Assembly (NCBI RefSeq): GCF_001689125.2
Contig: NZ_CP015405.2
Coordinates: 2,707,001 to 2,771,000 of the forward strand
From: Blautia pseudococcoides
GTDB taxonomy: Bacteria; Bacillota; Clostridia; Lachnospirales; Lachnospiraceae
Length of the DNA: 64,000 nucleotides
Direction: 5' to 3'
Shown here: positions 34,390 through 60,311 of the stretch, one piece after another
How the letters are laid out: every line of letters begins with the position of its first letter
Position numbering within the stretch: position 1 is the first letter of the stretch
Position numbers and translations under genes: made by a program
Notes under the pieces: model-generated
Told to the model about the DNA's origin: nothing
The model's input: only the letters and a program-made list of their open reading frames with translations
Database searches by the model: none

Positions 34390-35374
34390 TTTTGTATCCC
34401 TCCCTTATCTGCGGGTCCACGACCCCATAAATAATATTTGCCAGCATATTTCCCACAAAGACAAAGAGTGCCGAGAACAGGGTGATCCCCAAAAGCAGGG
34501 GCACATCAGACCCCATGCCTGCCGCTGAAGCCGCAGCTCCCAGACCCGGATAGGAAAATACATTTTCCGCCAGCACAGAACCTCCGAACAGCTCAGAAAA
34601 AGAGCCGAACTGCATGGTCACAGCAGGCAGCATAATATTGCGCAGCCCATGCCGTTTTAAGATACTCCATCCGGATTCCCCTCTGGCTCTGGCAAACATG
34701 ACGTACTCACTCTCCAGCACATCCACCAGCTTTTCCCTGGTGTGGAGTGCCACATTGGCAAAAGAGAGGAAGCTCAATGTGAGGGCCGGCAGGATCAGGT
34801 GATGGATTCTCTGTAAGACAGTCACCTGGTCTGTGGGGACACCTTTGGGCACACTCATTCCCATGGGAAACCATCCCAGCTTCACGGAAAATAGCATGAG
34901 GAAAACAATTCCGATCCAGAAGGTAGGAATGGAACACATGATCAGACAGAGCTTTTTCAGGACTTTATCCGGCCCTTTTCCGTGAAACGCGCCCATGACA
35001 CAGCCCACGGTAAATCCTATGATCCCGGAAAACAGCCATGCCGCCGCCATGAGCGCCAGGGAAGTGACAAATTTCTCTTTTATGATATCCAGCACAGGCC
35101 TTCTGTAGATCAATGACACGCCGAAGTCACCATGCAGGACTGACTTTGCCCATGTAAAAAAGCGCTCCACCGGCGGGTCATTAAGGCCCCAGTATTCCGC
35201 TATTTTTGCTCTCTGTTCCATGCTCACATTAGGCACTGCTCCCACATACTGCTGCACCGGGTCCACCGGGGACATATTTACCAGAAGAAAGCTTATGATG
35301 CTGACTGCTATGAGAAGTGTTACCATGCGGAGCAGATATTTCCCGGTGATTTTCAGATAATACTTATTTTTCAT
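34382..35374 (-). CDS. Dipeptide/nickel-type ABC transporter permease (DppB/NikB-like)
   Basis: A 330-residue permease beginning MKNKYYLKITGKYLLRMVTLL and continuing with the DppB-type first helix and NMSPVDPVQQYVG. The core contains GDFGVSLIYRRPVLDIIKEKF and the EAA loop ARARGESGWSILKRHGLRNIMLP. I use the ATG at 35374 behind GGAGAGACAGG; an upstream in-frame ATG at 35425 has no such site. It partners the DppC-like permease. Confidence 0.88.
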   Translation of the reverse strand: MKNKYYLKITGKYLLRMVTLLIAVSIISFLLVNMSPVDPVQQYVGAVPNVSMEQRAKIAEYWGLNDPPVERFFTWAKSVLHGDFGVSLIYRRPVLDIIKEKFVTSLALMAAAWLFSGIIGFTVGCVMGAFHGKGPDKVLKKLCLIMCSIPTFWIGIVFLMLFSVKLGWFPMGMSVPKGVPTDQVTVLQRIHHLILPALTLSFLSFANVALHTREKLVDVLESEYVMFARARGESGWSILKRHGLRNIMLPAVTMQFGSFSELFGGSVLAENVFSYPGLGAAASAAGMGSDVPLLLGITLFSALFVFVGNMLANIIYGVVDPQIREGYKNE

Positions 35375-37827: not shown

Positions 37828-37835
37828 ATCTATAG

Positions 37836-37909
37836 TAGCGAGAGGGGGACTTGAACCCTCGACACTACGGGTATGAACCGTATGCTCTAGCCAGCTGAGC
37901 TATCTCGCC
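37836..37909 (-). tRNA. tRNA-Met (anticodon CAT), copy 2
   Basis: A 74-nt cloverleaf: acceptor GGCGAGA, D-arm GCTC, anticodon stem TACGG/CCGTA around TTCATAC (anticodon CAT), T-loop TTCAAGT. The encoded end stops before CCA. The anticodon stem lacks three consecutive GC pairs, so it is the elongator form, or possibly an isoleucine tRNA with modified C34. It is identical to the copy at 38053-38126. Confidence 0.9.
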
Positions 37910-37941
37910 ATCTGTATTTCTTCTGCTTTTTTGCAAAAGAA

Positions 37942-38014
37942 TGGGACCTATAGGGCTCGAACCTATGACCCTCTGCTTGTAAGGCAGATGCTCTCCCAGC
38001 TGAGCTAAGATCCC
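37942..38014 (-). tRNA. tRNA-Val (anticodon TAC), copy 2
   Basis: A 73-nt cloverleaf: acceptor GGGATCT, D-arm GCTC, anticodon loop CTTACAA (anticodon TAC), T-loop TTCGAGC. CCA is not encoded. Same sequence as the copy at 38160-38232. Confidence 0.92.
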
Positions 38015-38052
38015 ATAAATTTCATTTGATTGTCTGCTGCTTGTACAGCAAG

Positions 38053-38126
38053 TAGCGAGAGGGGGACTTGAACCCTCGACACTACGGGTATGAACCGTAT
38101 GCTCTAGCCAGCTGAGCTATCTCGCC
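38053..38126 (-). tRNA. tRNA-Met (anticodon CAT), copy 1
   Basis: A 74-nt cloverleaf with acceptor GGCGAGA, anticodon loop TTCATAC and T-loop TTCAAGT, identical to the copy at 37836-37909. It follows tRNA-Val copy 1 in the operon. Confidence 0.9.
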
Positions 38127-38159
38127 ATCTGTATATATCCTCTGCTTTTGGCAAAAGAA

Positions 38160-38232
38160 TGGGACCTATAGGGCTCGAACCTATGACCCTCTGCTTGTAA
38201 GGCAGATGCTCTCCCAGCTGAGCTAAGATCCC
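38160..38232 (-). tRNA. tRNA-Val (anticodon TAC), copy 1
   Basis: A 73-nt cloverleaf with anticodon TAC, identical to the copy at 37942-38014. It is the first gene of the four-tRNA operon and lies about 40 bp after the promoter. Confidence 0.92.
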
Positions 38233-38273
38233 ATTTCATTTAGCAGTCTCTGCTACTGCTTGACTGCTTTGCT

Positions 38274-50093: not shown

Positions 50094-51320
50094 ATGAACC
50101 TAACTGCAAAACACACCATTTACGGCTGCTACCTAGGCTACATCACCCAGGCCATTGTCAACAACCTTCCGCCCCTTTTATTCCTCACCTTCCATAACCA
50201 ATTCGGCATCTCCCTGGAGAAGATCAGCCTGCTGATCACCGTAAACTTCTGCATTCAGATCCTCATAGATTTCCTGGCGCCGGGGATCATAAAAAAGGTG
50301 GGATACCGGGCAGTAGGCATCACTTCTTTTCTCGTAACAACCCTGGGACTCACAGGATTTTCCTGGCTTCCCTTTGTCCTTCCAAACGCCTACGCAGGCA
50401 TTTTGATCTGCATGACCCTCAATGCCATCGGCGGCGGTATCCTGGAAGTCATCGTAAGTCCTATCGTGGAAGCCTGCCCCAGTGAAAATAAAGAATCCGC
50501 CATGAGCCTTCTTCACTCCTTCTACTGCTGGGGGCACATGGGCGTGGTGATCCTTTCTACCGTGTTCTTCGTGGCGATCGGCATTGATTCCTGGCGGTAT
50601 CTCCCCTCTCTTTGGGCGTTGGTCCCGCTGTTCACCTGCATGATGTTTTTAAAAATCCCTATCTACAGCATTGAGGGAGACGACGAGGAGACCCAGCTAC
50701 CCGGAGGTATTTTCAAAAGCAGGATTTTCTGGGTTCTCTTTCTGCTGATGATATGTGCCGGTGCCTCGGAACAGGCCGTAAGCCAGTGGTCCTCCCTGTT
50801 CGCCGAGGATGGACTTGGTGTCAGCAAAACCGTGGGTGACCTTCTCGGCCCCTGCGCCTTTGCCTTCTTCATGGGACTTTCAAGGCTTCTTTACGGGATC
50901 AAAGGTGACAAGCTGAATATCCGCCACGGTCTGCTGGGAACCAGCGCACTGTGTATCGTGGGATATCTCATCACCAGCCTTTCCCCGATCCCCCTTCTCT
51001 CCCTGGCAGGCTGCGCACTGTGCGGCTTTTCCGTTGGACTGATGTGGCCCGGACTATTCTCCCTGGGCGCCGTTCTCTGCCGTGGGGGCGGCACTATGAT
51101 GTACGCCATGTTTGCCCTGGCCGGTGATGTGGGATGCTCCGCAGGCCCTACCGTTGTTGGGTTTGTCACAGACGCCGTGGGCTCCATGAAGACAGGGATC
51201 ATGGCGGCCCTTGTATTCCCGGCCCTTTTATTTATAGTCATGCTGGGTCTGCAGAAAAACTCTGCAAAAGAAAAGACAACAGATACAACGGCAGCCGGAG
51301 ATTTGAGAAGTCAGGAATAA
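50094..51320 (+). CDS. MFS transporter, FucP/sugar-type
   Basis: A 408-residue carrier with twelve helices. It has an extended LPPLLFLTFHNQFGISLEKI in the first loop, GIIKKVGYRAVG between helices 2 and 3, and AGASEQAVSQWSSLFAEDGLGVS, where the conserved glutamate and glutamine-rich helix resemble fucose/sugar permease-like MFS proteins. AAGGAG precedes the ATG. A LysR regulator follows 21 bp later in the same transcript, and the operon has its own promoter. The substrate cannot be predicted. Confidence 0.83.
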   Translation: MNLTAKHTIYGCYLGYITQAIVNNLPPLLFLTFHNQFGISLEKISLLITVNFCIQILIDFLAPGIIKKVGYRAVGITSFLVTTLGLTGFSWLPFVLPNAYAGILICMTLNAIGGGILEVIVSPIVEACPSENKESAMSLLHSFYCWGHMGVVILSTVFFVAIGIDSWRYLPSLWALVPLFTCMMFLKIPIYSIEGDDEETQLPGGIFKSRIFWVLFLLMICAGASEQAVSQWSSLFAEDGLGVSKTVGDLLGPCAFAFFMGLSRLLYGIKGDKLNIRHGLLGTSALCIVGYLITSLSPIPLLSLAGCALCGFSVGLMWPGLFSLGAVLCRGGGTMMYAMFALAGDVGCSAGPTVVGFVTDAVGSMKTGIMAALVFPALLFIVMLGLQKNSAKEKTTDTTAAGDLRSQE

Positions 51321-51341
51321 GGAAAGAACCGGAGGTGTTTT

Positions 51342-52220
51342 ATGGATATCAGTTTTGAACTATATAAAGTATTTTACCACGTAGCCTCCACCCTGAGTTT
51401 TTCGGAGGCTTCAAGACAGCTTTTTATCTCACAGTCTGCTGTCAGCCAGTCTGTAAAATCCCTGGAACAAAAACTTGGCCACCCCCTCTTTGTGCGCAAC
51501 ACCAAAAAAGTGGAGCTGACGCCAGAGGGGGAAACCCTTTTCCGCCATGTGCAGCCTGCTGTCTCCCTGCTCCTTCAGGGCGAAAACCAGCTTATGCACA
51601 CAGCGTCCGCGGAAGCGCCTCTCAGGATCGGCGCCAGCGACACCATCTGCCGGTATTTTCTGGTGCCCTATCTGCGGCGTTTCCACCAGGAATTCCCGGA
51701 TATCCACATCAAAGTCACCAATGCCACCTCCATCGGCTGCGTGGAGCTGCTGGAAAACAGACAGGTGGATTTTATCGTCTGCAATTACCCCAACTCCAGG
51801 TTAAAGATAAAGGAACACTACAAAACCATTCTGACCTTCCGGGATGTGTTCGCTGCCAACAGGCACTACTTTGATCTTACGGACCAAAAACTTTCCCTGA
51901 CAGAACTGCATCAGTACCCGCTTCTCATGCTCAGTAAAAAAAGCACGACCAGCGAATTTCTCCACAGCCTGTTTCTGCAAAAAGGTCTGAACCTGACCCC
52001 TGAAGTGGAATTGTCCAGCAATGACCTTCTGCTGGATCTGGCATATATCGGCCTTGGGATTGCCTTTGTCCCTGATTTTGTCCTGGACCAGCGAAAAAAA
52101 GGCCTGTACCAGCTTCAGATAAAAGAAGAGCTGCCCAAAAGGCATCTGGTTCTGGCTTACACCGAACAGCAGAGCACCTCCGCGGCAGCGAATAAATTTC
52201 TGGCTTATTTCAACGATTAA
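51342..52220 (+). CDS. LysR-family transcriptional regulator
   Basis: A 292-residue LysR protein. Residues 1-60 form the winged helix (FELYKVFYHVASTLSFSEASRQLFISQSAVSQSVKSLEQ, HPLFVRNTKKVELTPEGE in brief), followed by the two-lobe effector domain from about residue 90 (LRIGASDTICRYFLVPYLRRF). GGAGGT precedes the ATG. It follows the MFS gene in one operon and probably controls it. A GCCCCG/CGGGGC hairpin at 52263-52286 lies between this gene and the convergent ABC operon. Confidence 0.88.
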   Translation: MDISFELYKVFYHVASTLSFSEASRQLFISQSAVSQSVKSLEQKLGHPLFVRNTKKVELTPEGETLFRHVQPAVSLLLQGENQLMHTASAEAPLRIGASDTICRYFLVPYLRRFHQEFPDIHIKVTNATSIGCVELLENRQVDFIVCNYPNSRLKIKEHYKTILTFRDVFAANRHYFDLTDQKLSLTELHQYPLLMLSKKSTTSEFLHSLFLQKGLNLTPEVELSSNDLLLDLAYIGLGIAFVPDFVLDQRKKGLYQLQIKEELPKRHLVLAYTEQQSTSAAANKFLAYFND

Positions 52221-52342: not shown

Positions 52343-53098
52343 TTACAAAACAGAGTCGATCAATAATTTGGTATAGTCCTGTTTCGGACGCATGATCACC
52401 TCATCCGGTGTCCCTTCCTCCACAATTTTCCCCTGGTACATCACCAGCACATAATCACAGAAATTCTGGACCAGCGCCAGATCATGACAGATCAGCAGTA
52501 CGGAAAGTCCCATTTCCTTTCTCAGCTTTTGAAGCAGGGTGATGATCTGAGACTGCACAGTCACATCAAGGGCACTGGTTGCTTCATCACAGATGAGCAG
52601 CCGGGGATTGACGGCAAGTGCTCTCGCAATAGCCGCCCGCTGGCATTGCCCTCCGCTGACCTCATGGGGATAGCGGGCCGCATATTTCTCCTCCAGCCCC
52701 ACCATGGAAAGAAGCTCCTTCATCCTTTTCCCTGCTTCTTTTCTCTTCATCCCGTAATTCCGCATCCCCTCCATAATACCGTCCCCCAGGCTGCGTCTCG
52801 GATCAAAAGAATCCTCAGGTGTCTGAAATACCATCTGTACATTTCGGTACAAATCCATCTGCTGCTTTCTCCCCGCCCCCACCATTTCCCGTCCGTCCAG
52901 AAGTACACTCCCGGCATCCGGTCTTGTAAAGCAGGTGATCATTCTGGCAATGGTACTTTTTCCGCATCCGCTCTCTCCCACAATGCCCACACAGGAACCT
53001 TCCTTCACAGAAAAACTCACATCATCCACAGCCGGACAGACATGCTTTGCTTTATAAAACGTTTTTTTCAAGTTCTTTACTTCCAGTATCTTATCCAT
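52343..53098 (-). CDS. Dipeptide/nickel-type ABC ATPase (DppF/NikE-like)
   Basis: A 251-residue ATPase with Walker A GESGCGKST, the Q-loop MVFQTPEDSFDPRRSLG typical of DppF/OppF, signature VSGGQCQR and Walker B LLICDEATSALD. The switch histidine is in LLICHDLALVQNFC. It is the last gene of the seven-gene operon and partners the DppD-like subunit. The start is four bases after the stop of the preceding gene, with AGAGGTTAGG upstream. Confidence 0.9.
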   Translation of the reverse strand: MDKILEVKNLKKTFYKAKHVCPAVDDVSFSVKEGSCVGIVGESGCGKSTIARMITCFTRPDAGSVLLDGREMVGAGRKQQMDLYRNVQMVFQTPEDSFDPRRSLGDGIMEGMRNYGMKRKEAGKRMKELLSMVGLEEKYAARYPHEVSGGQCQRAAIARALAVNPRLLICDEATSALDVTVQSQIITLLQKLRKEMGLSVLLICHDLALVQNFCDYVLVMYQGKIVEEGTPDEVIMRPKQDYTKLLIDSVL

Positions 53099-53101
53099 AA
53101 C

Positions 53102-53887
53102 CTAACCTCTGTGGATCCGCAGCACGGCACGGACTAATTTTTGAGTATATTCCTCCTTGGGATGTTGTATCACTTCTTTTGTATCCCCATATTCCACCAG
53201 CCTGCCCCGGTACATGACAGCCACTTTATCCGCCATATACTCTACCACGCCGATATTGTGGGTGACAATGACAATGGTTGTGCCGAACAGTTCTCTCATC
53301 TTCATCATTTCCCGCACCACCTGCGCCTGGACCGTAACGTCCAGAGCACTGGTAGGCTCATCCGCAAAGAGAAGGGCAGGCTTAAGGATCATAGCCATCA
53401 TGATCCCCACCCTCTGGTTCATGCCCCCTGAAAGTTCAAAAGGGTAGCTCTTTAATATCCTCTCCCCATCCAAAAGCTTCATCTTATCAAACAGGTCCAT
53501 GGCCCGTTCCCTGATCTCCCTTCTGGGTATTTTCTCATGCTGGAGAACTGACTCGTAAAGCTGGTCTTCTATTGTGCGGATCGGGCAGAGGGATGCCCCT
53601 GTGTTCTGGAAGATCATCCCCATCTGGGGGCCTCGCAGCTTACGCAGTTCCTCCCCTTTCAGCTCTGTGACATTCTTATCCCTGTAAAGGATACGGCCCC
53701 CCGTCACTGCCCCGTCACTGCCTAACAGACCCATGGCAGCTCTGATCAATGTGCTTTTTCCGCTGCCGCTCTCCCCCACGATCCCAAGGATCCGGCCAGG
53801 TTCCAGAGTCAGGTTTACATCTTCCAATACAGACTGTCCCGTATAACATATCTGCAGATGCTCCACCGCTAAAATAGACTGTCCCAC
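53102..53887 (-). CDS. Dipeptide/nickel-type ABC ATPase (DppD/NikD-like)
   Basis: A 261-residue ATPase with Walker A GESGSGKST, signature LSGGMNQR and Walker B LLFADEPTSALD. It lacks the cysteine-bearing C-terminal extension of classical DppD, so it is shorter than usual. The start is a GTG at 53887 with AAAGGACGG upstream. It forms a heterodimer with the DppF-like ATPase. Confidence 0.88.
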   Translation of the reverse strand: MGQSILAVEHLQICYTGQSVLEDVNLTLEPGRILGIVGESGSGKSTLIRAAMGLLGSDGAVTGGRILYRDKNVTELKGEELRKLRGPQMGMIFQNTGASLCPIRTIEDQLYESVLQHEKIPRREIRERAMDLFDKMKLLDGERILKSYPFELSGGMNQRVGIMMAMILKPALLFADEPTSALDVTVQAQVVREMMKMRELFGTTIVIVTHNIGVVEYMADKVAVMYRGRLVEYGDTKEVIQHPKEEYTQKLVRAVLRIHRG

Positions 53888-53913
53888 GTTTTCCGTCCTT
53901 TCTGATCCCGTTG

Positions 53914-55500
53914 TTAATTTTTATCCAGGTCTACTGTGATCTCATAGTAATCACAGGGATGCGCTTCCAGACCTGTCACGCCTTCTCCGGAGACAATGGA
54001 CATTTTCAGATGAGAGGCAAAAACAAACCCATTGTCATCCAGGATGGTCTGCGTCATCTGTGTGGCCAGCTTTGCCCTCTCATCCGTATCAAACGCTGCC
54101 TTCATCTGCCCCTCCAGTTCCTGCAGTTTATCGCTGTGATAACCGCCTCTGTTTTTGGAGGATTCGTCCAGGCAGTGTGTAGTGAAAAAATATTCCGGAT
54201 CGCCGGTAGGTGCGCAGACAAATGCCCCTGCATAGATATCCCAGTCTCCGCTGTCCAGAAAGCTCTGGAAATCCGCGGAACAATTGACCTCCACTTTGAT
54301 CCCAACCTCCTTAAGGGTAGCCTGCACCGTTTCTGCCAGCAGGGGAAGCTCCTGGCGGCTTGGATACGTCACCCAGCGTATGGTAAGATTTTCTCCGTCC
54401 TTATCCACATATCCGTCTTTATCACTGTCCGACCATCCTGCTTCTGCCAGTAATTTTTTTGCTTCCTCAGGCTGATACCCGGGAGCTGTCACCGTATCAT
54501 CGCCAAAAGCAAAATTGGCGGGGAAAGGCCCTGCTGCCGCTGTCCCGTTTCCGTCTAAAAGTGTTTTGGTAAAGTTTTCTTTATCAATCGACATGGCAAT
54601 GGCCTTCCTTACTTTTTCATCCTGAAGCGCCGGCGTGTCATAATTCATCTGTCCGAAGAAAGAACGGGAGGTTTCTACCGATGATATGGTATATGGCTCC
54701 TGTGAAAACAGCGGGAGGCTTGCATAGGGGAGGCCATAAGTCGCATCCAGTTCACCGGACTGCATAGCCATGGTCATGGTATCACCATCAGAAATGGTCT
54801 TCACATGGATGGTATCCAGTTTCGGCTCTCCGTCCCAGTAATTTTTATTTTTTACTAAAGTAAGGCCAACGTCTGTCTCTACTTCTGTGGCAATATAAGG
54901 GCCGGTTCCTGTCACATTTCCATCCTCCGTAACACCGGCTTCCATGTCAACCATACACCCATAAGGGTCGGACAAATAGTTTATCAATGCCGGTACCGGT
55001 TCTTTTGTGACAATGTTCAATATCTGTCCGTCCGCGGATATTTCCTTTATTTTTAAATCTCCCTTCGCCCTCTCATGGACGCTCACCAGATCATCCAGAC
55101 ATTCCTTAACTGCCTGCGCGTCCAGCCTGCGCCCGCTGGTAAAGGATACATCCTCTCTCAGCGTGATCTTCCAGGTATTCTCATCCACCAGTTCATACTC
55201 TGTGGCAAGCCATGGCTCCAGTTCCATTTTATCGGAATATTTAAACAATGTCTCCCCTATACCGTAGCGGATACACGCCCATCCGGAATACCCGTTGTGA
55301 GGGTTCACATCCGATTCATCGTTCTCTGCATTGAATGTGGTGTCTCCATAAGTGAACACCTTCTCCCCGTTTTCTTTTACCGTACTGTCTTCCTTAGCTT
55401 CTGCTTTGGCATCCCCACAGCCGGATAAAAGTGCTGCAGTCAGGCAAAATGCCAGTACCGCGGCACCCGCCTTTTTATGGAATAAGCTTGTTTTGTTCAT
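53914..55500 (-). CDS. Dipeptide/nickel-type ABC substrate-binding lipoprotein
   Basis: A 528-residue family-5 binding protein. The lipobox is LLSGC with the acylated cysteine at residue 28. The mature protein has LATEYELVDENTWKITLREDVSFTSGRRLDA, VTGTGPYIATEVETDVG and VRKAIAMSIDKENF, typical of NikA/DppA-type proteins. The pattern TFNAENDESDVNPHNGYSGWACIRYG near the N-terminus is common in nickel- or metallophore-type members. AAGGGAG precedes the ATG. It is the fifth gene of the operon that starts with two methyltransferase genes, so the imported ligand is probably what those enzymes handle. Confidence 0.87.
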   Translation of the reverse strand: MNKTSLFHKKAGAAVLAFCLTAALLSGCGDAKAEAKEDSTVKENGEKVFTYGDTTFNAENDESDVNPHNGYSGWACIRYGIGETLFKYSDKMELEPWLATEYELVDENTWKITLREDVSFTSGRRLDAQAVKECLDDLVSVHERAKGDLKIKEISADGQILNIVTKEPVPALINYLSDPYGCMVDMEAGVTEDGNVTGTGPYIATEVETDVGLTLVKNKNYWDGEPKLDTIHVKTISDGDTMTMAMQSGELDATYGLPYASLPLFSQEPYTISSVETSRSFFGQMNYDTPALQDEKVRKAIAMSIDKENFTKTLLDGNGTAAAGPFPANFAFGDDTVTAPGYQPEEAKKLLAEAGWSDSDKDGYVDKDGENLTIRWVTYPSRQELPLLAETVQATLKEVGIKVEVNCSADFQSFLDSGDWDIYAGAFVCAPTGDPEYFFTTHCLDESSKNRGGYHSDKLQELEGQMKAAFDTDERAKLATQMTQTILDDNGFVFASHLKMSIVSGEGVTGLEAHPCDYYEITVDLDKN

Positions 55501-55502
55501 GT

Positions 55503-56354
55503 CTAATCTCCCTTTCTCTGATGTCTTTGATATTTTCGGTTTCTCCGGGGATCCATAACATCCCGCACCGCATCACCTAATAAATTAAACAGCATCACCG
55601 TAAGAAATATGGCAAACCCCGGCGCCAGGATCACCCACGGGGATGTCTGAAGCATACTTCTGCCGTTACTCATCATGGAACCCCACTCCGCAATGGGAGG
55701 GACTGCCCCAAGCCCCAGAAAAGATAAGCCCGCAATCTCCATCATCATGGTACCGATATCCAGGACGCCGGTGATGAGGATTGGTCCTGCAATATTAGGA
55801 AGCATATGCTTCACAATGATTTTCCCTGTGCCAGACCCGGAAAGCCTGGCCGCTGCAATAAAAGGTTCTTCTTTCATGGTCATAACCTGACTCCTGGCAA
55901 TTCTGGCGAATTTCGGCCAGGATATACATGCCAGAGCCACCACTGCGTTCATGACTCCGCCCCCTGTGACACCTGCAACCGCTATGGCAAAAACCATGCC
56001 CGGAAAAGCCAGGAAAACATCGGATATCCTCATAAGCACCGTATCCGTCTTACCCCCGTGATAACCGCAAAACACTCCGATCACAGTGCCCGCAGTCATG
56101 GTGATCACCACCAGCAGCAGAGATGAGAATATGGTTGTCTGTCCCCCCATGATCACCCTGGACAGCATATCCCTTCCATAACGGTCTGTTCCCAGCAGAT
56201 GTGCCCCTCCGGGCGGCTTGAGGGCATTTCCCAGATCCTGGGCATAAGGGTCATAAGGAACAAGATATTTTGCAAACACTGCCGCCAAAAGCACTGCCCC
56301 CACCAATACGGACAAAAGGATGCATTTTAGTTTTATATCATCTTTCTTTATCAT
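55503..56354 (-). CDS. Dipeptide/nickel-type ABC permease (DppC/NikC-like)
   Basis: A 283-residue permease with an N-terminal helix, LLGTDRYGRDMLSRVIMGGQTT and the coupling loop ARLSGSGTGKIIVKHMLPNI. I start at the ATG at 56354 because AGGAGG lies seven bases upstream; it overlaps the last four bases of the DppB-like gene (ATGA). It forms the channel with that subunit. Confidence 0.88.
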   Translation of the reverse strand: MIKKDDIKLKCILLSVLVGAVLLAAVFAKYLVPYDPYAQDLGNALKPPGGAHLLGTDRYGRDMLSRVIMGGQTTIFSSLLLVVITMTAGTVIGVFCGYHGGKTDTVLMRISDVFLAFPGMVFAIAVAGVTGGGVMNAVVALACISWPKFARIARSQVMTMKEEPFIAAARLSGSGTGKIIVKHMLPNIAGPILITGVLDIGTMMMEIAGLSFLGLGAVPPIAEWGSMMSNGRSMLQTSPWVILAPGFAIFLTVMLFNLLGDAVRDVMDPRRNRKYQRHQRKGD

Positions 56355-57298
56355 CCGTGGGCCTCCTGTCCTATGCGGATTCTCGGGTCCAGGAAGCAAT
56401 AGATCAGGTCCGTGACAAGATTCACCAGCACGTAGATAACTGCCATCCAGATCACATATGCCTGGATCACCGGATAGTCACGCATGGTAATTGCGTCGAC
56501 GGCCATTTTCCCCACGCCGTCCCACATAAATATAGACTCAACAATGGCAGTGCCTCCAAGAAGAGAACCGACAGATAATGCCAGCAGCGTTACAATGGTC
56601 AGCATGGATGCTTTCAGCACACTGAAAGAAAGGATCTTCTTCTCCTGAACCCCGCGCGCCCTGGCCCCCTGCACATACTCTTTGTTCAGCTCCTCCAGCA
56701 CTGTGGCCCGCACCTGTCTGGTATATTTGGCCGCCATTGCCAGAGCCAGGGTAAGAGTTGGCAGAATGATACTTTTCCACCCCTGGGCATTTCCCATCAC
56801 AGGGAACCAGCCAAGCTTTAGGGCGAAAATATAGATCAGCAGCAAAGACACGAAAAAATTCGGAAGGGAGTTACCGATAAAACTGAGAAAACGTATCAGA
56901 TAATCCCAAAAATGACTTTGTTTTACAGCCGCTAAGATCCCAAGGGGAATGGAGATCAATACGGTCAGCAAAACGGACGTGGCTGCCAATGCAACGGTGG
57001 CCGGAAGTTTTGACACAAACGTGGTAAATACCGGTTGTCCGGAAACAAAAGACTTTCCCATATCTCCCGTGAGTACGCCCTTTAGCCACACCGCATACTG
57101 CTGGGGAAGAGGCTTGTCCAGTCCAAGTTCTTCCCTTGCAGCCGCTTTCTCGGCATCAGACATGGAACCTCCCGTATTTTGTTCCATCACATCAACTGCG
57201 TCCATGGCAGATGCCTGCATCAGAACAAAGGACAAAAGCGTGATCCCGATCAAAATAGGTATCAGCTGCAGAAGCCTTTTTATTATGTACTTTTTCAT
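56351..57298 (-). CDS. Dipeptide/nickel-type ABC permease (DppB/NikB-like)
   Basis: A 315-residue permease beginning MKKYIIKRLLQLIPILIGIT, with the DppB marks PLPQQYAVWLKGVLTGDMGKSF and the coupling loop ARARGVQEKKILSFSVLKASM. The ATG overlaps the stop of the deacylase-methyltransferase gene by four bases (ATGA), and AAGGAATGAGGAG is upstream. Tight overlaps argue for coordinated expression. Confidence 0.88.
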   Translation of the reverse strand: MKKYIIKRLLQLIPILIGITLLSFVLMQASAMDAVDVMEQNTGGSMSDAEKAAAREELGLDKPLPQQYAVWLKGVLTGDMGKSFVSGQPVFTTFVSKLPATVALAATSVLLTVLISIPLGILAAVKQSHFWDYLIRFLSFIGNSLPNFFVSLLLIYIFALKLGWFPVMGNAQGWKSIILPTLTLALAMAAKYTRQVRATVLEELNKEYVQGARARGVQEKKILSFSVLKASMLTIVTLLALSVGSLLGGTAIVESIFMWDGVGKMAVDAITMRDYPVIQAYVIWMAVIYVLVNLVTDLIYCFLDPRIRIGQEAHG

Positions 57299-59013
57299 CT
57301 CCTCATTCCTTTTTGTAACTCACACTTTTTTCCGCAGATCATGAAAATGGGTGTGGGGTTATAGAACTCATCTTTTTCTATATAAATACGCCTGCTGATC
57401 CCCAGGTCTATGGAAATTTCTTCTATTTCCATCTGCCCCAGGGTTTCCACATCCCAGGCCGGGCGGACGCGGGAACTGATGGGGAGCTGGCGCTTGATCT
57501 CCTCACACGCCTGCATCATGTCCTCACCCAGCGTATGGTGGGCATGGCTGTCCGGCAGTTCGGAAGTATCCGCGAAATTACTGGCACCGTAATTGGCGTC
57601 AAAATTCAAAAGGATTCCCTCCGCCTTCAGCACTCTTATCCACTCCCCATAAGCTTCCTTCACATGGGGAAGGGTCCAGGTCAGGTTTCTGGAGATGACA
57701 ACATCAAAACTTCCATCCTCAAACTCCAGCTTCTCCGCATCCATGACCAGAAAACGGCAGGAGACATTTTCTTCCTTTGCAAGCTGTTTGGAATTGACGA
57801 TCATCTCCGGGGTCAAATCAGTTCCCGTCACCTCATGTCCCAGTTTAGCCAGAAGAATGGAAAAGAATCCGGAACCGCATCCCACATCCAGGATTTTTAA
57901 TTTCTTTCCTGCCGGAAGCTTCTGCCGGATCTCCCCCAGCCAGCGTTCTGCCAGAGGGCTTTTCAGTTCTCTTCTCCTCTGCTCCATAAAACTCTCACTG
58001 CGCTTTGCCCAGTAATCCGTGATCCTCTCTTTTCTGTCATCAAAATTTTTGACAATCCTTCCGTAAGCGATCATTGGGCCGTTTTCCAGGACCTGGAGAC
58101 TGCCTGTCTGACAGAGGATGACGCCGTCGCATTCCGCGCGGCAGACCTCCGTCACATTCCCTTCATAGTCCTTTACCGTACCCAGAACCTCCCCGCCCTG
58201 AATCATATCCCCCGGCATCTTATAGGGATACCAGCATCCGTTGGCAGAGGCGGCCTGATATCTGATATCCACCACATCAAGAGGATAATAGACCCGGTAG
58301 TCCCTCTGTCCCTCATAAATACCCAGCGAGCAGAGAATATTCCGCACATCTCTTCTGGTAGAGCGGACTTCCTCCATGGTCCAGCCTCCCATACCGCCTC
58401 TCTCCATAAGAATACCCGGAATACCGGTATGCGCCGCATAATTATAGGCACCGCCTGTGGCAACCGTGGACCGCACCATATAAGGCACATCCACCTGCTC
58501 CGCCATTTTTCTCGACATAGCCACCACCCGCTCCTCCGCCTTGCCCGCATAATACACATAAGGGGTGAGCTGTTCGTAATCGTCGCCGCTGTGCAGGTCA
58601 ATGCAGAAATCAACCGCCGGAAATACTTCCTGTGTCATGGCCCAGGCAAGCTGCTGCGTCCAAGTTCCCTTTGGGTCCCCGGGAAACTCCCGGTTGAGAT
58701 TCTTGCCATCCTCCAATCCCAGGCTGCCGCCTCTGCACGCAAAAGCCTCTCTGCATACTGCCTTCAAAATGACCACTGTTCCGCTAATCTTCCTGATCTT
58801 TAATTTTTCCGATAATTCAATGGCAGCCTGGATGCCCACATATTCTCCTGCGTGAACACCAGCCATAATAAGAACCGTTTTTCCCGGCTTCTCACCGTTT
58901 AAAATGGCTGCGGGAAGTTTGAATTTCCCCTCTGCCAGCTCCAGAAACCCGCTGCAGATTTCTCCCGGCTCTGCTTTCATATTTACAAGCGTGAATGTCT
59001 TCGTATTAAGCAT
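57295..59013 (-). CDS. Aspartoacylase/AstE-like deacylase fused to a SAM methyltransferase
   Basis: A 572-residue two-domain protein. Residues 1-320 are a zinc carboxypeptidase-like deacylase of the succinylglutamate desuccinylase/aspartoacylase (M14-like) family: the metal ligands H54 and E57 in GVHAGE, the third ligand H141 in DLHSGDD and the catalytic glutamate E204 in LMERGG. Residues 325-572 are a class I methyltransferase with motif I ILDVGCGSG (374-382), DVVISRNLTW and LLNFDAN. The second half is paralogous to the stand-alone methyltransferase upstream. The start at 59013 (ATG) overlaps that gene by eight bases. The fusion suggests that one enzyme trims an acyl or amide group and methylates the same compound, probably the ligand of the ABC transporter encoded next. 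The order of reactions and the substrate are unknown. Confidence 0.78.
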   Translation of the reverse strand: MLNTKTFTLVNMKAEPGEICSGFLELAEGKFKLPAAILNGEKPGKTVLIMAGVHAGEYVGIQAAIELSEKLKIRKISGTVVILKAVCREAFACRGGSLGLEDGKNLNREFPGDPKGTWTQQLAWAMTQEVFPAVDFCIDLHSGDDYEQLTPYVYYAGKAEERVVAMSRKMAEQVDVPYMVRSTVATGGAYNYAAHTGIPGILMERGGMGGWTMEEVRSTRRDVRNILCSLGIYEGQRDYRVYYPLDVVDIRYQAASANGCWYPYKMPGDMIQGGEVLGTVKDYEGNVTEVCRAECDGVILCQTGSLQVLENGPMIAYGRIVKNFDDRKERITDYWAKRSESFMEQRRRELKSPLAERWLGEIRQKLPAGKKLKILDVGCGSGFFSILLAKLGHEVTGTDLTPEMIVNSKQLAKEENVSCRFLVMDAEKLEFEDGSFDVVISRNLTWTLPHVKEAYGEWIRVLKAEGILLNFDANYGASNFADTSELPDSHAHHTLGEDMMQACEEIKRQLPISSRVRPAWDVETLGQMEIEEISIDLGISRRIYIEKDEFYNPTPIFMICGKKCELQKGMRR

Positions 59014-59785
59014 AGACTTTGCTGTCCCCTTTCCGTCCATTTATCATAAACATGGGTGTGGAGCCATAGTTCAGCTTTTCCTCTTTGCTCCATACCCGCT
59101 CCCAGACTGATGTGTCTGTGTGTATTTCCGCAAATCCTGTTCGCTTCAGTATTTCCATATCCCAGCCCGGACGCATTTTTGAGGAGAGGGGCATCTGCAG
59201 GGCGATCTGCTCCATAGCGTCAATATCTGTGCACAGGTAATGGTCATCCAGGCTTAACTGCTCCACGTTTTTCCGGTCCTGCTCATAAGCGTTCCGCTTC
59301 TGTTCATCGTAGAGATATCCATACCAATTGGCATCAAAATTCAGAAGCTTTCCGCCCGGCTTCAACACCCGGTACCAATCCCGGTAAGCCTGCTCCGGTT
59401 TTTCCAGGTTCCAGGTCAGGTTTCTGGAGATCACCACATCAAAGGTGTTATCCTCAAATCCAAGATTCTGGGCATCCATACGGTAAAAATCTATTTTTTT
59501 ACACAGGTTTCCCGCATTCTCCATAGCCTTCTCCAGCATCTCCCGGGTGTAATCCACGGCTGTGACCGGATATCCGGCTTCTGCCAGGATTATGGAAAAA
59601 AAGCCGGGGCCTGTGCCAATGTCCAGTATTTTCATTTCCTCCCTGGGCATGGCCGGAAATTCCGCCTCCAGCACTTCCAGCCAGGCCTCCTTCTGCATCC
59701 CTTCCAGTTCCTTATGGTTCACTTCCGAATACCCTTCTGTGCGGGTACTCCAGTATTTCTCTATTTTCTCCAGCAGTCTTTCCAT
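59006..59785 (-). CDS. Class I SAM-dependent methyltransferase
   Basis: A 259-residue methyltransferase. Motif I is ILDIGTGPG (53-61), the acidic post-I end is VTAVDYT, and DVVISRNLTWNLEKPEQAYRDWYRVLKPGGKLLNFDANW covers motifs II and III. A distinctive C-terminal block PLSSKMRPGWDMEIL and STPMFMINGRK is shared, in similar form, with the C-terminal half of the downstream fusion protein (PISSRVRPAWDVE, PTPIFMICGKK), so the two arose by duplication. AAAGGATG precedes the ATG. It is the first gene of the ABC operon. The methyl acceptor is unknown. Confidence 0.85.
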   Translation of the reverse strand: MERLLEKIEKYWSTRTEGYSEVNHKELEGMQKEAWLEVLEAEFPAMPREEMKILDIGTGPGFFSIILAEAGYPVTAVDYTREMLEKAMENAGNLCKKIDFYRMDAQNLGFEDNTFDVVISRNLTWNLEKPEQAYRDWYRVLKPGGKLLNFDANWYGYLYDEQKRNAYEQDRKNVEQLSLDDHYLCTDIDAMEQIALQMPLSSKMRPGWDMEILKRTGFAEIHTDTSVWERVWSKEEKLNYGSTPMFMINGRKGDSKVYA

Positions 59786-59845: not shown

Positions 59846-59884
59846 GAAAAAATGCCACAAGCCCCATGGGGGGATTATGGCATT
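59846..59884 (-). terminator. Terminator of ridA
   Basis: AATGCCA and TGGCATT arms (59851-59857 / 59878-59884) with a CCCC/GGGG inner stem, followed on the minus strand by TTTTTT. It isolates ridA from the methyltransferase operon. Confidence 0.8.
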
Positions 59885-59939
59885 CATTCAAACATAATAA
59901 TTTGTTATATTATTTTTACGGCCAGCGCAGCAGATACGC

Positions 59940-60311
59940 TTAAATTTCAGCGATAGCTTCCACTTCGCACAGCACATTTTTAGGCAGTGTCTTTACTGCC
60001 ACGCAGGAACGTGCAGGTTTGCCGGTGAAGTATTTTCCGTATACTTCATTAAAGGCGGCAAAATCACCCATATCTGACAGAAAACAGGTTGTCTTAACCG
60101 TTTTCTCATAGCTGCTTCCCGCCTCTTTTAACACTTCGCCCAGGTTCTTCATTACCTGTTCTGCCTGCTCCTCAATGGTTTTTGCTGTAATTTCACCTGT
60201 AGCCGGATCAATGGGAATCTGACCGGAAGTGAATACCACTCCGTTTACGATCATTGCCTGTGAATATGGTCCGATCGCTGCCGGAGCCTTGTCAGTGCTT
60301 ACTACCTTCAT
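59940..60311 (-). CDS. ridA: RidA family reactive intermediate deaminase
   Basis: A 123-residue protein of the RidA (YjgF/YER057c/UK114) family. It begins MKVVSTDKAPAAIGPYSQA and has VFTSGQIPIDPATGEI, KTTCFLSDMGDFAAFNEVYG and PARSCVAVKTLPKNVLCEVEAIA, where the arginine in PARS is the substrate-binding residue. It hydrolyses reactive enamines/imines from PLP enzymes. AGAAGGGAG precedes the ATG. Single gene with own promoter and terminator. Confidence 0.93.
   Translation of the reverse strand: MKVVSTDKAPAAIGPYSQAMIVNGVVFTSGQIPIDPATGEITAKTIEEQAEQVMKNLGEVLKEAGSSYEKTVKTTCFLSDMGDFAAFNEVYGKYFTGKPARSCVAVKTLPKNVLCEVEAIAEI

Follow-up and report, generated by a model that had tools for sequence, protein, structure and literature searches.

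A nickel-type importer operon of Blautia pseudococcoides with two linked methyltransferase families and a fused deacylase that may act on a nickel ligand

The window analysed here is a stretch of 64,000 nucleotides of Blautia pseudococcoides NZ_CP015405.2, whose genome (G000) is a single contig of 5.13 Mb. Between positions 52343 and 59785 its minus strand is filled by seven packed open reading frames that probably serve the uptake of nickel or a nickel chelate. In gene order they encode a stand-alone methyltransferase-fold protein (MTA), a deacylase fused to a second methyltransferase-fold domain (DEAC-MTB), and the importer subunits NikB, NikC, NikA, NikD and NikE. Protein families were assigned with Pfam and NCBIfam, with gathering and curated cut-offs as thresholds. 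MTA (59006..59785, 259 residues) and MTB (57298..58050, residues 331-581 of the fusion) match the class I S-adenosylmethionine (SAM)-dependent methyltransferase family PF08241 with 86.8 and 89.9 bits at a cut-off of 21.2. The fusion gene (57295..59040) codes for 581 residues as longest reading frame and was delimited from PF24827 and PF08241, alignments and a model with a predicted local distance difference test score (pLDDT) of 79.4; DEAC takes up residues 16-330 approximately (58051..58995). The permease genes nikB (56351..57298) and nikC (55503..56399, longest frame from TTG), the gene for the solute-binding lipoprotein NikA (53914..55500, PF00496 242.8 bits) and the ATPase genes nikD (53102..53887) and nikE/oppF (52343..53098) complete the run. 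A first-pass annotation had described seven overlapping genes with these domains, and both the reading frames and Pfam bear it out. The longest frames form three overlaps (35, 4 and 49 nucleotides) and three gaps (2, 26 and 3 nucleotides). Judged from sequence, the fusion gene probably starts at the second ATG (MLNTK..., residue 10), as in homologue P0004, which would shorten its overlap with MTA to 8 nucleotides; NikC probably starts 45 nucleotides inside its TTG frame, at the next Met. The seven genes are presumably co-transcribed.

The two methyltransferase-fold domains are 42% identical (E 1.4e-48) and have the unusual blocks in common that had been noticed at first reading, namely DVVISRNLTW in both, LLNFDANW or LLNFDANY, and RPGWDMEIL or RPAWDVETL (RPxWDxE). 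We examined 110 methyltransferase domains from 71 loci and the window in a tree that leaves out most of loci L024-L069 and labels its rows by best match to the window's MTA or MTB. A 100/100 branch separates the MTB-like rows as one group from every MTA-like row, so the domains are duplicates, as first proposed, of an old duplication, and a recent one was rejected. The midpoint root falls inside the MTA-like rows, which may be paraphyletic, with long-branch warnings and a root position that is not fixed. The AlphaFold model of MTA (pLDDT 91.6) agrees with the class I fold, and its structural neighbours are class I small-molecule methyltransferases, with the glycine sarcosine and phosphoethanolamine N-methyltransferases close behind the top-ranking CouO and NovO. 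Identity to these enzymes is 16-25% in the rows looked at, and metal uptake is not mentioned in the description of any listed row. Since many class I methyltransferases are tied within 1 Z of MTA, no substrate follows from the structure, and assignment on that basis was rejected. MTA and MTB would transfer methyl groups, and the modelled fold would be compatible with aminocarboxypropyl transfer as well. At three loci a single protein of 495-499 residues combines MTA and MTB (L073:8115-9614, L074:7673-9160, L075:8909-10402); neither NikB nor NikC lies within the 15-18 kb fetched there, and in L073 a pseudouridine synthase gene directly follows the fusion.

DEAC is an AstE/AspA-type zinc deacylase by its PF24827 score (76.4 bits, cut-off 25) and its H..E..H motif. 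Residues H63, E66 and H150 are intact, as previously stated, and invariant in an alignment of 17 rows together with N116-R117 and E213-R214-G215; we take these to be the zinc ligands and catalytic residues of the family. The closest structures are 3cdx, 3na6 and DoeB (6twm). DoeB/EutE, an N-acetyl-diaminobutyrate deacetylase and the nearest characterised AstE/AspA relative, has the fold and active-site motifs in common with DEAC, whereas DEAC is 21-23% identical in the DoeB rows, is fused to a methyltransferase and misses the DoeB equivalog TIGR02994 (88.1 bits, cut-off 402.7).

The fusion is widespread and not confined to this genome. A protein search returned 2655 fusion homologues among 7983 scored; among the best 120 of these, 6 have 555-570 residues and 114 have 814-870. 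Eight of nine aligned long homologues read MTA-DEAC-MTB in one chain; the other 105 were classed from their length and their list of Pfam domains. The window thus encodes in two genes, MTA and DEAC-MTB, what is often a single chain elsewhere. One homologue of 870 residues (P0025) instead carries DEAC, then an MTA-like domain, then MTB, and may be a true variant or an artefact of assembly. Of 19 congeners sampled, 16 have a match to the fusion that spans 480 residues or more, and a further one has a fragment at a contig end. DEAC and/or methyltransferase matches occur in 63 of 397 family genomes (E 1e-35), a scan of named genomes gave 48 loci, with Blautia in the title of 21, and the 90% cluster P0099 comprises 366 contigs from gut Lachnospiraceae. 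The closest named locus found is that of Blautia parvula, with a fusion 90% identical (very near records may be absent from that scan).

The permeases exceed the cut-offs of nickel-permease models, NikB that of NF045470 Opp2B (371.6 bits, cut-off 350) and NikC that of NF045474 Opp2C (318.3, cut-off 300), while both fall short of the equivalogs TIGR02789 NikB (319.9, cut-off 447) and TIGR02790 NikC (285.5, cut-off 358). The CntC model gives 211.1 bits for NikC against a cut-off of 440. Among solved chains NikA is nearest to 3t66, which is named as nickel-binding, and to SaNikA (4ofj); in relatives the TIGR02294 NikA cut-off is reached in L092, L027 and L105 and not in L026, L118, L130 and L133. 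By sequence the importer is thus nickel-type at its permeases, and we file it as a relative of NikABCDE and not as a proven member. The metal-chelate part of the original "dipeptide/nickel" label stands, and the dipeptide part is disfavoured because the permeases pass nickel-permease cut-offs. Compared with the NikABCDE and Opp2-Opp5A systems of Escherichia coli (Nik) and Staphylococcus aureus (NikA), the window shares the B, C, A, D and E gene content; the nik genes of those two species presumably come without a methyltransferase or deacylase. A second OppB/DppB-type permease domain lies in the window at 35069-35332 (minus strand, PF19300 24.2 bits) and is one of seven in the genome.

Linkage of the enzymes to the importer is kept in relatives. 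We mapped 113 loci (L024-L136), most of them chosen by matching methyltransferase or deacylase queries; 111 hold such a match, two pairs overlap (L065/L088 and L067/L089), and the greedy reading-frame maps may hide or invent small genes. NikB and NikC both lie within 6 kb of a methyltransferase or DEAC gene in 72 of the 111 loci (70 of 109 distinct ones) and a single one of them in 6; the reading frames of enzyme and importer genes often overlap. The core of a locus is MTA and/or MTB with Nik. DEAC is absent from L078-L081, L083, L086, L090, L097 and others, some of these genomes matching DEAC elsewhere, and we propose that it was added in the Blautia lineage. The methyltransferase families are spread over many Bacillota families and also occur in Proteus. 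Across the phylum the MTA profile matched 26 of 398 evenly drawn genomes, of which 24 were tested, G000 and G533 being left out. In 15 of the 24 genomes the best match lies at most 7 kb from a NikB/OppB-type permease gene, where 0.37 would be expected by chance (tail probability 3e-22 under independence of the genomes). The profile itself favours such matches, since most of the methyltransferases that went into it are Nik-linked. With any match counted, 17 of the 24 genomes and 10 of 13 families are linked. The original claim that the enzymes belong with the importer is therefore upheld by both samples.

Several relatives place these genes in a nickel context. In L133 larB, larC, larE and MTB are consecutive on one strand, with LarB, LarC and LarE all over their curated cut-offs and with MTA and nik genes at a distance of 2-8 kb. 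LarC of this locus (L133:12711-13964, minus strand) is joined in one chain to a His-rich repressor domain of the CsoR/RcnR type (PF01969 and PF02583), possibly a built-in nickel sensor of cofactor synthesis. L130 has nikB-C-A-D, MTA and MTB, and 1.1 kb further along come hypB, which exceeds its cut-off, and genes of hydrogenase type. Among the latter, the gene for the large subunit scores best with Complex1_49kDa (216 bits) and gives 48.9 bits for PF00374 over the first 69 positions, so that its kind is unsettled. In Proteus mirabilis (L092) a single methyltransferase gene, its product 46% identical to MTA, stands 21 nucleotides before nikA with no DEAC, and NikA there scores 626 against a cut-off of 393. 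The Nik system of P. mirabilis has been reported, in a passage of PMC11026637, to supply urease with nickel when YntA is lost; going by the family match of NikA, this would be the methyltransferase-linked locus. The L092 record (NZ_OL790811.1, 4.08 Mb) is labelled "plasmid", is chromosome-sized and is unannotated at the locus. In L083 and L118 a CsoR-type repressor gene lies 20 nucleotides from nikA and 195 from a methyltransferase gene. Such a repressor is also found near the Blautia operons L024 and L025 and, in G000, some 0.7 kb outside the window; it was not counted for Blautia because at least 4-6 kb and other genes separate it from the methyltransferase gene.

Other metals appear as well. 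Beside CbiM and the MTA-DEAC-MTB gene, L041 (12725-14407, minus strand) and L047 (12583-14265, minus strand) encode a CbiO-CbiK fusion of ATPase and cobalt chelatase, called by Pfam for the former locus and by BLAST for the latter. CbiK is further present in L087 and, by BLAST, in L082 and L135, and CbiM in L117 and L135. L084 has ZnuA, an ABC-3 permease and a Fur-type regulator (below equivalog cut-offs). FecBCD-type importers occur in L105, L107, L118 and L124 and on rhizobial plasmids, where a related methyltransferase gene is divergent to an iron-annotated FecBCD-like importer (L095:5810-9810 and L096:5705-9774, Sinorhizobium and Rhizobium).

Among the 397 family genomes, every one of the 56 that bear a methyltransferase carries LarC or nickel carbon monoxide dehydrogenase (CODH), against 203 of the 341 that do not; the odds ratios (Fisher, methyltransferase versus non-methyltransferase genomes) are 21 for LarC and 12.6 for CODH in a test that ignores phylogeny, which lessens its weight. 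Seven DEAC-only genomes were dropped before this count; with them included, CODH is found in 42 of 63, LarC in 57 and either in 62, G268 having neither. Five of the matches counted as CODH fall below the curated cut-off; 37 of the 56 methyltransferase genomes and 45 others have one that exceeds it. G000 itself has one LarC match and two CODH matches.

The first-pass annotation had also considered an opine-type metallophore. The staphylopine Cnt and pseudopaline systems resemble the present one in having a related importer, SAM enzymes together with it, and exporters, here in relatives. In place of a nicotianamine synthase (NAS), for which this genome has no match, the operon has two methyltransferase-fold proteins and a deacylase. 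PF03059 (NAS) was not found in G000; 3 of 28 methyltransferase genomes match it, 2 of them over the cut-off, with a positive Methanosarcina control. An opine pathway in this genome was dropped for want of a NAS match; PF10100 opine dehydrogenase matched 0 of 28 genomes, but the control genomes gave no match either. One operon, L103, reads nikB-nikC-MTA-4Fe4S protein-nikA-nikD-nikE-EamA-NAS-like. Its EamA-type gene has a counterpart in pseudopaline, whose EamA-type exporter is CntI according to a passage of PMC5719457. The NAS-like protein scores 31.1 bits with PF03059 (cut-off 27.1), and its nearest PDB entries are thermonicotianamine synthase (1.8e-12) and CntL (3.6e-10). Short NAS-like proteins of 163-199 residues occur at metal loci of two phylum genomes (L103:3469-3960, minus strand; L137:4714-5307, minus strand; L138:4116-4715, plus strand), neighbouring EamA, a DUF4198-like gene, or Fur-like and Feo-like genes. 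L137 and L138 belong to G732 and lack methyltransferases, so these proteins are not specific to the methyltransferases. A NAS-like candidate in L106 was discarded, as it scores better as a methyltransferase; the cluster of L105 has a TonB receptor, TonB and CbiX. Genes for MATE exporters lie on the same strand and overlap or come within 100 nucleotides of a methyltransferase, DEAC or nikE gene in L064, L076, L127 and L135 (by Pfam MatE in the last three, by BLAST only in L064).

We consider it probable that the operon takes up nickel or a nickel chelate and that its enzymes are directed at nickel use. The narrower proposal, that the linked enzymes act on the nickel ligand and most likely make it, we hold at even chances, with making favoured over releasing. 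Action is placed on the ligand and not on the ion because Nik-type binding proteins take nickel complexes, as stated in excerpts of PMC3856676 and PMC11091072. In this proposal NikABCDE would import nickel complexed with a small organic ligand on which the cytosolic MTA and MTB, joined by DEAC in the Blautia lineage, would act. With SAM as donor, MTA and MTB would alkylate nitrogens of an amino-acid-type chelator, and DEAC would strip an N-acyl group and so free a donor amine. An exporter, represented by the in-operon MATE or EamA gene in some relatives and presumably required in B. pseudococcoides too, would secrete the ligand, and NikA would recover its nickel complex. We put forward more tentatively, and with some doubt, that MTA and MTB with DEAC constitute a new, non-opine pathway to the missing dedicated nickelophore of NikABCDE, which would perhaps be an amino-acid chelator, possibly histidine-based, that is built or tailored through transfer of methyl or aminocarboxypropyl groups and, once secreted, is taken back up.

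A number of observations weigh against ligand synthesis or against nickel. Neither NikB nor NikC is found within 6 kb in 33 of the 111 loci (10 of them with flanks shorter than 6 kb), and the best methyltransferase match lies away from the permease in 9 of the 24 phylum genomes, or 7 by any match. NikA of the window is below the curated nickel cut-offs of its best-scoring family, NF045468 Opp5A_nikA (359.3, cut-off 600), and of TIGR02294 (177.4, cut-off 393), and so are both ATPases below theirs: NikD with TIGR02770 (246.5, cut-off 318.7) and NikE with TIGR02769 (240.2, cut-off 332.55) as well as with the family that scores best for it, NF011659 OppF (260.4, cut-off 540). Nickel is not the sole context, the methyltransferases also standing beside FecBCD or Znu importers or apart from any, and the examined part of the window contains no nickel enzyme gene. 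The top two structural rows for MTA are C-methyltransferases, and likeness of methyltransferase folds gives no substrate. The window's own operon has no exporter, and around other loci most of the MATE genes lie at a distance of 1-9 kb, often on the opposite strand. Across the mapped loci there is no other recurrent biosynthetic gene or synthase; the NAS-like gene sits in one methyltransferase operon, L103, and its congener G589 lacks it there.

The strongest alternative, which we nevertheless find rather unlikely, is release and recycling: DEAC would cut an amide and MTA and MTB would methylate donor nitrogens, so that nickel is freed in the cytosol, and MATE would expel the spent ligand. This would also account for the exporters and suits enzymes that sit with an importer, show no obvious signal peptide (judged by eye only) and come without a recurrent synthase in the mapped loci. 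DEAC, moreover, looks like a hydrolase and can stand by itself, next to Nik ATPase genes in L070 and to a DUF4198 gene in L128. It fits poorly, however, with the NAS-like gene and EamA exporter in the L103 operon, with the single methyltransferase of P. mirabilis without DEAC, and with MTB following the lar genes in L133. The same L133 run, the hypB and hydrogenase-type neighbours in L130 and the co-occurrence with LarC and CODH would suit a role of the enzymes in nickel metabolism itself, where they would modify a nickel cofactor, a storage compound or another metabolite and not the transported ligand. We judge this improbable, since importer genes are the closest and most frequent linkage, often with overlapping frames, and the P. 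mirabilis and FecBCD cases do not suit it. Catabolism of peptides or N-acyl amino acids, with a Dpp/Opp-type importer, a deacylase and detoxifying methyltransferases and with metal links due to chance, would agree with the peptide/nickel superfamily of the importer, the sub-threshold binding protein, the kinship of DEAC to amidohydrolases such as DoeB and the presence of LysR-type genes from a single family at 23 of 68 loci; we rate it very unlikely in view of the nickel-permease scores, the nickel, cobalt and zinc neighbours in several loci and the co-occurrence with nickel enzymes. Chance clustering without joint function, to which the 33 loci without nearby NikB or NikC might be credited, is next to negligible given the phylum linkage, hidden sampling bias being its remaining escape.

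The likely upstream border of the operon is a terminator-like hairpin behind ridA (59940-60311). This likely intrinsic terminator lies between ridA and MTA at 59846..59889 on the minus strand (-24.3 kcal/mol, z -5.35, six U at the 3' side) and was not listed by a separate terminator pattern scan. RidA was rejected as an operon member in G000 since the strong hairpin intervenes; a RidA gene recurs near the L076 operon. Downstream, a LysR gene and a major facilitator superfamily (MFS) gene converge on the operon. The MFS transporter and the LysR regulator (50094-52220, plus strand) recur in part elsewhere: the transporter is 93% identical in L025 and has a 53% relative near the nik operon of L078. 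It is a possible exporter candidate. Riboswitch control was rejected, as tRNAs alone reach Rfam gathering scores in the window. Among them is a Met-Val-Met-Val cluster (37835-38233, minus strand), apparently two repeats of a Met-Val pair with equal Rfam scores per kind.

Among the titles and abstract beginnings listed from the open-access literature we found no paper that links these methyltransferases or the deacylase-methyltransferase fusion with nickel import, and the accessible sections of PMC2667541, PMC2954201, PMC10134865 and PMC10745698 make no mention of them. PMC2954201 describes another family, DUF364, in a metal-transport context. L-histidine is the believed ligand of NikABCDE and a dedicated nickelophore is stated to be unknown in an excerpt of PMC11091072; the question is listed as open in a passage of an older review (PMC3856676). 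Nik-type importers need a small organic ligand, and for this widespread importer class no dedicated nickelophore is known, going by the same excerpt of PMC11091072. Two conserved SAM-enzyme families that travel with Nik importers provide named genes with which this question can be tested. The association of the methyltransferase families with larBCE or hypB comes from single genomes, and the families themselves are found in gut Lachnospiraceae and Proteus. If the proposal is true, the nickel supply of gut bacteria that depend on CODH or the lactate-racemase cofactor would be tied to a metabolite that can be shared.

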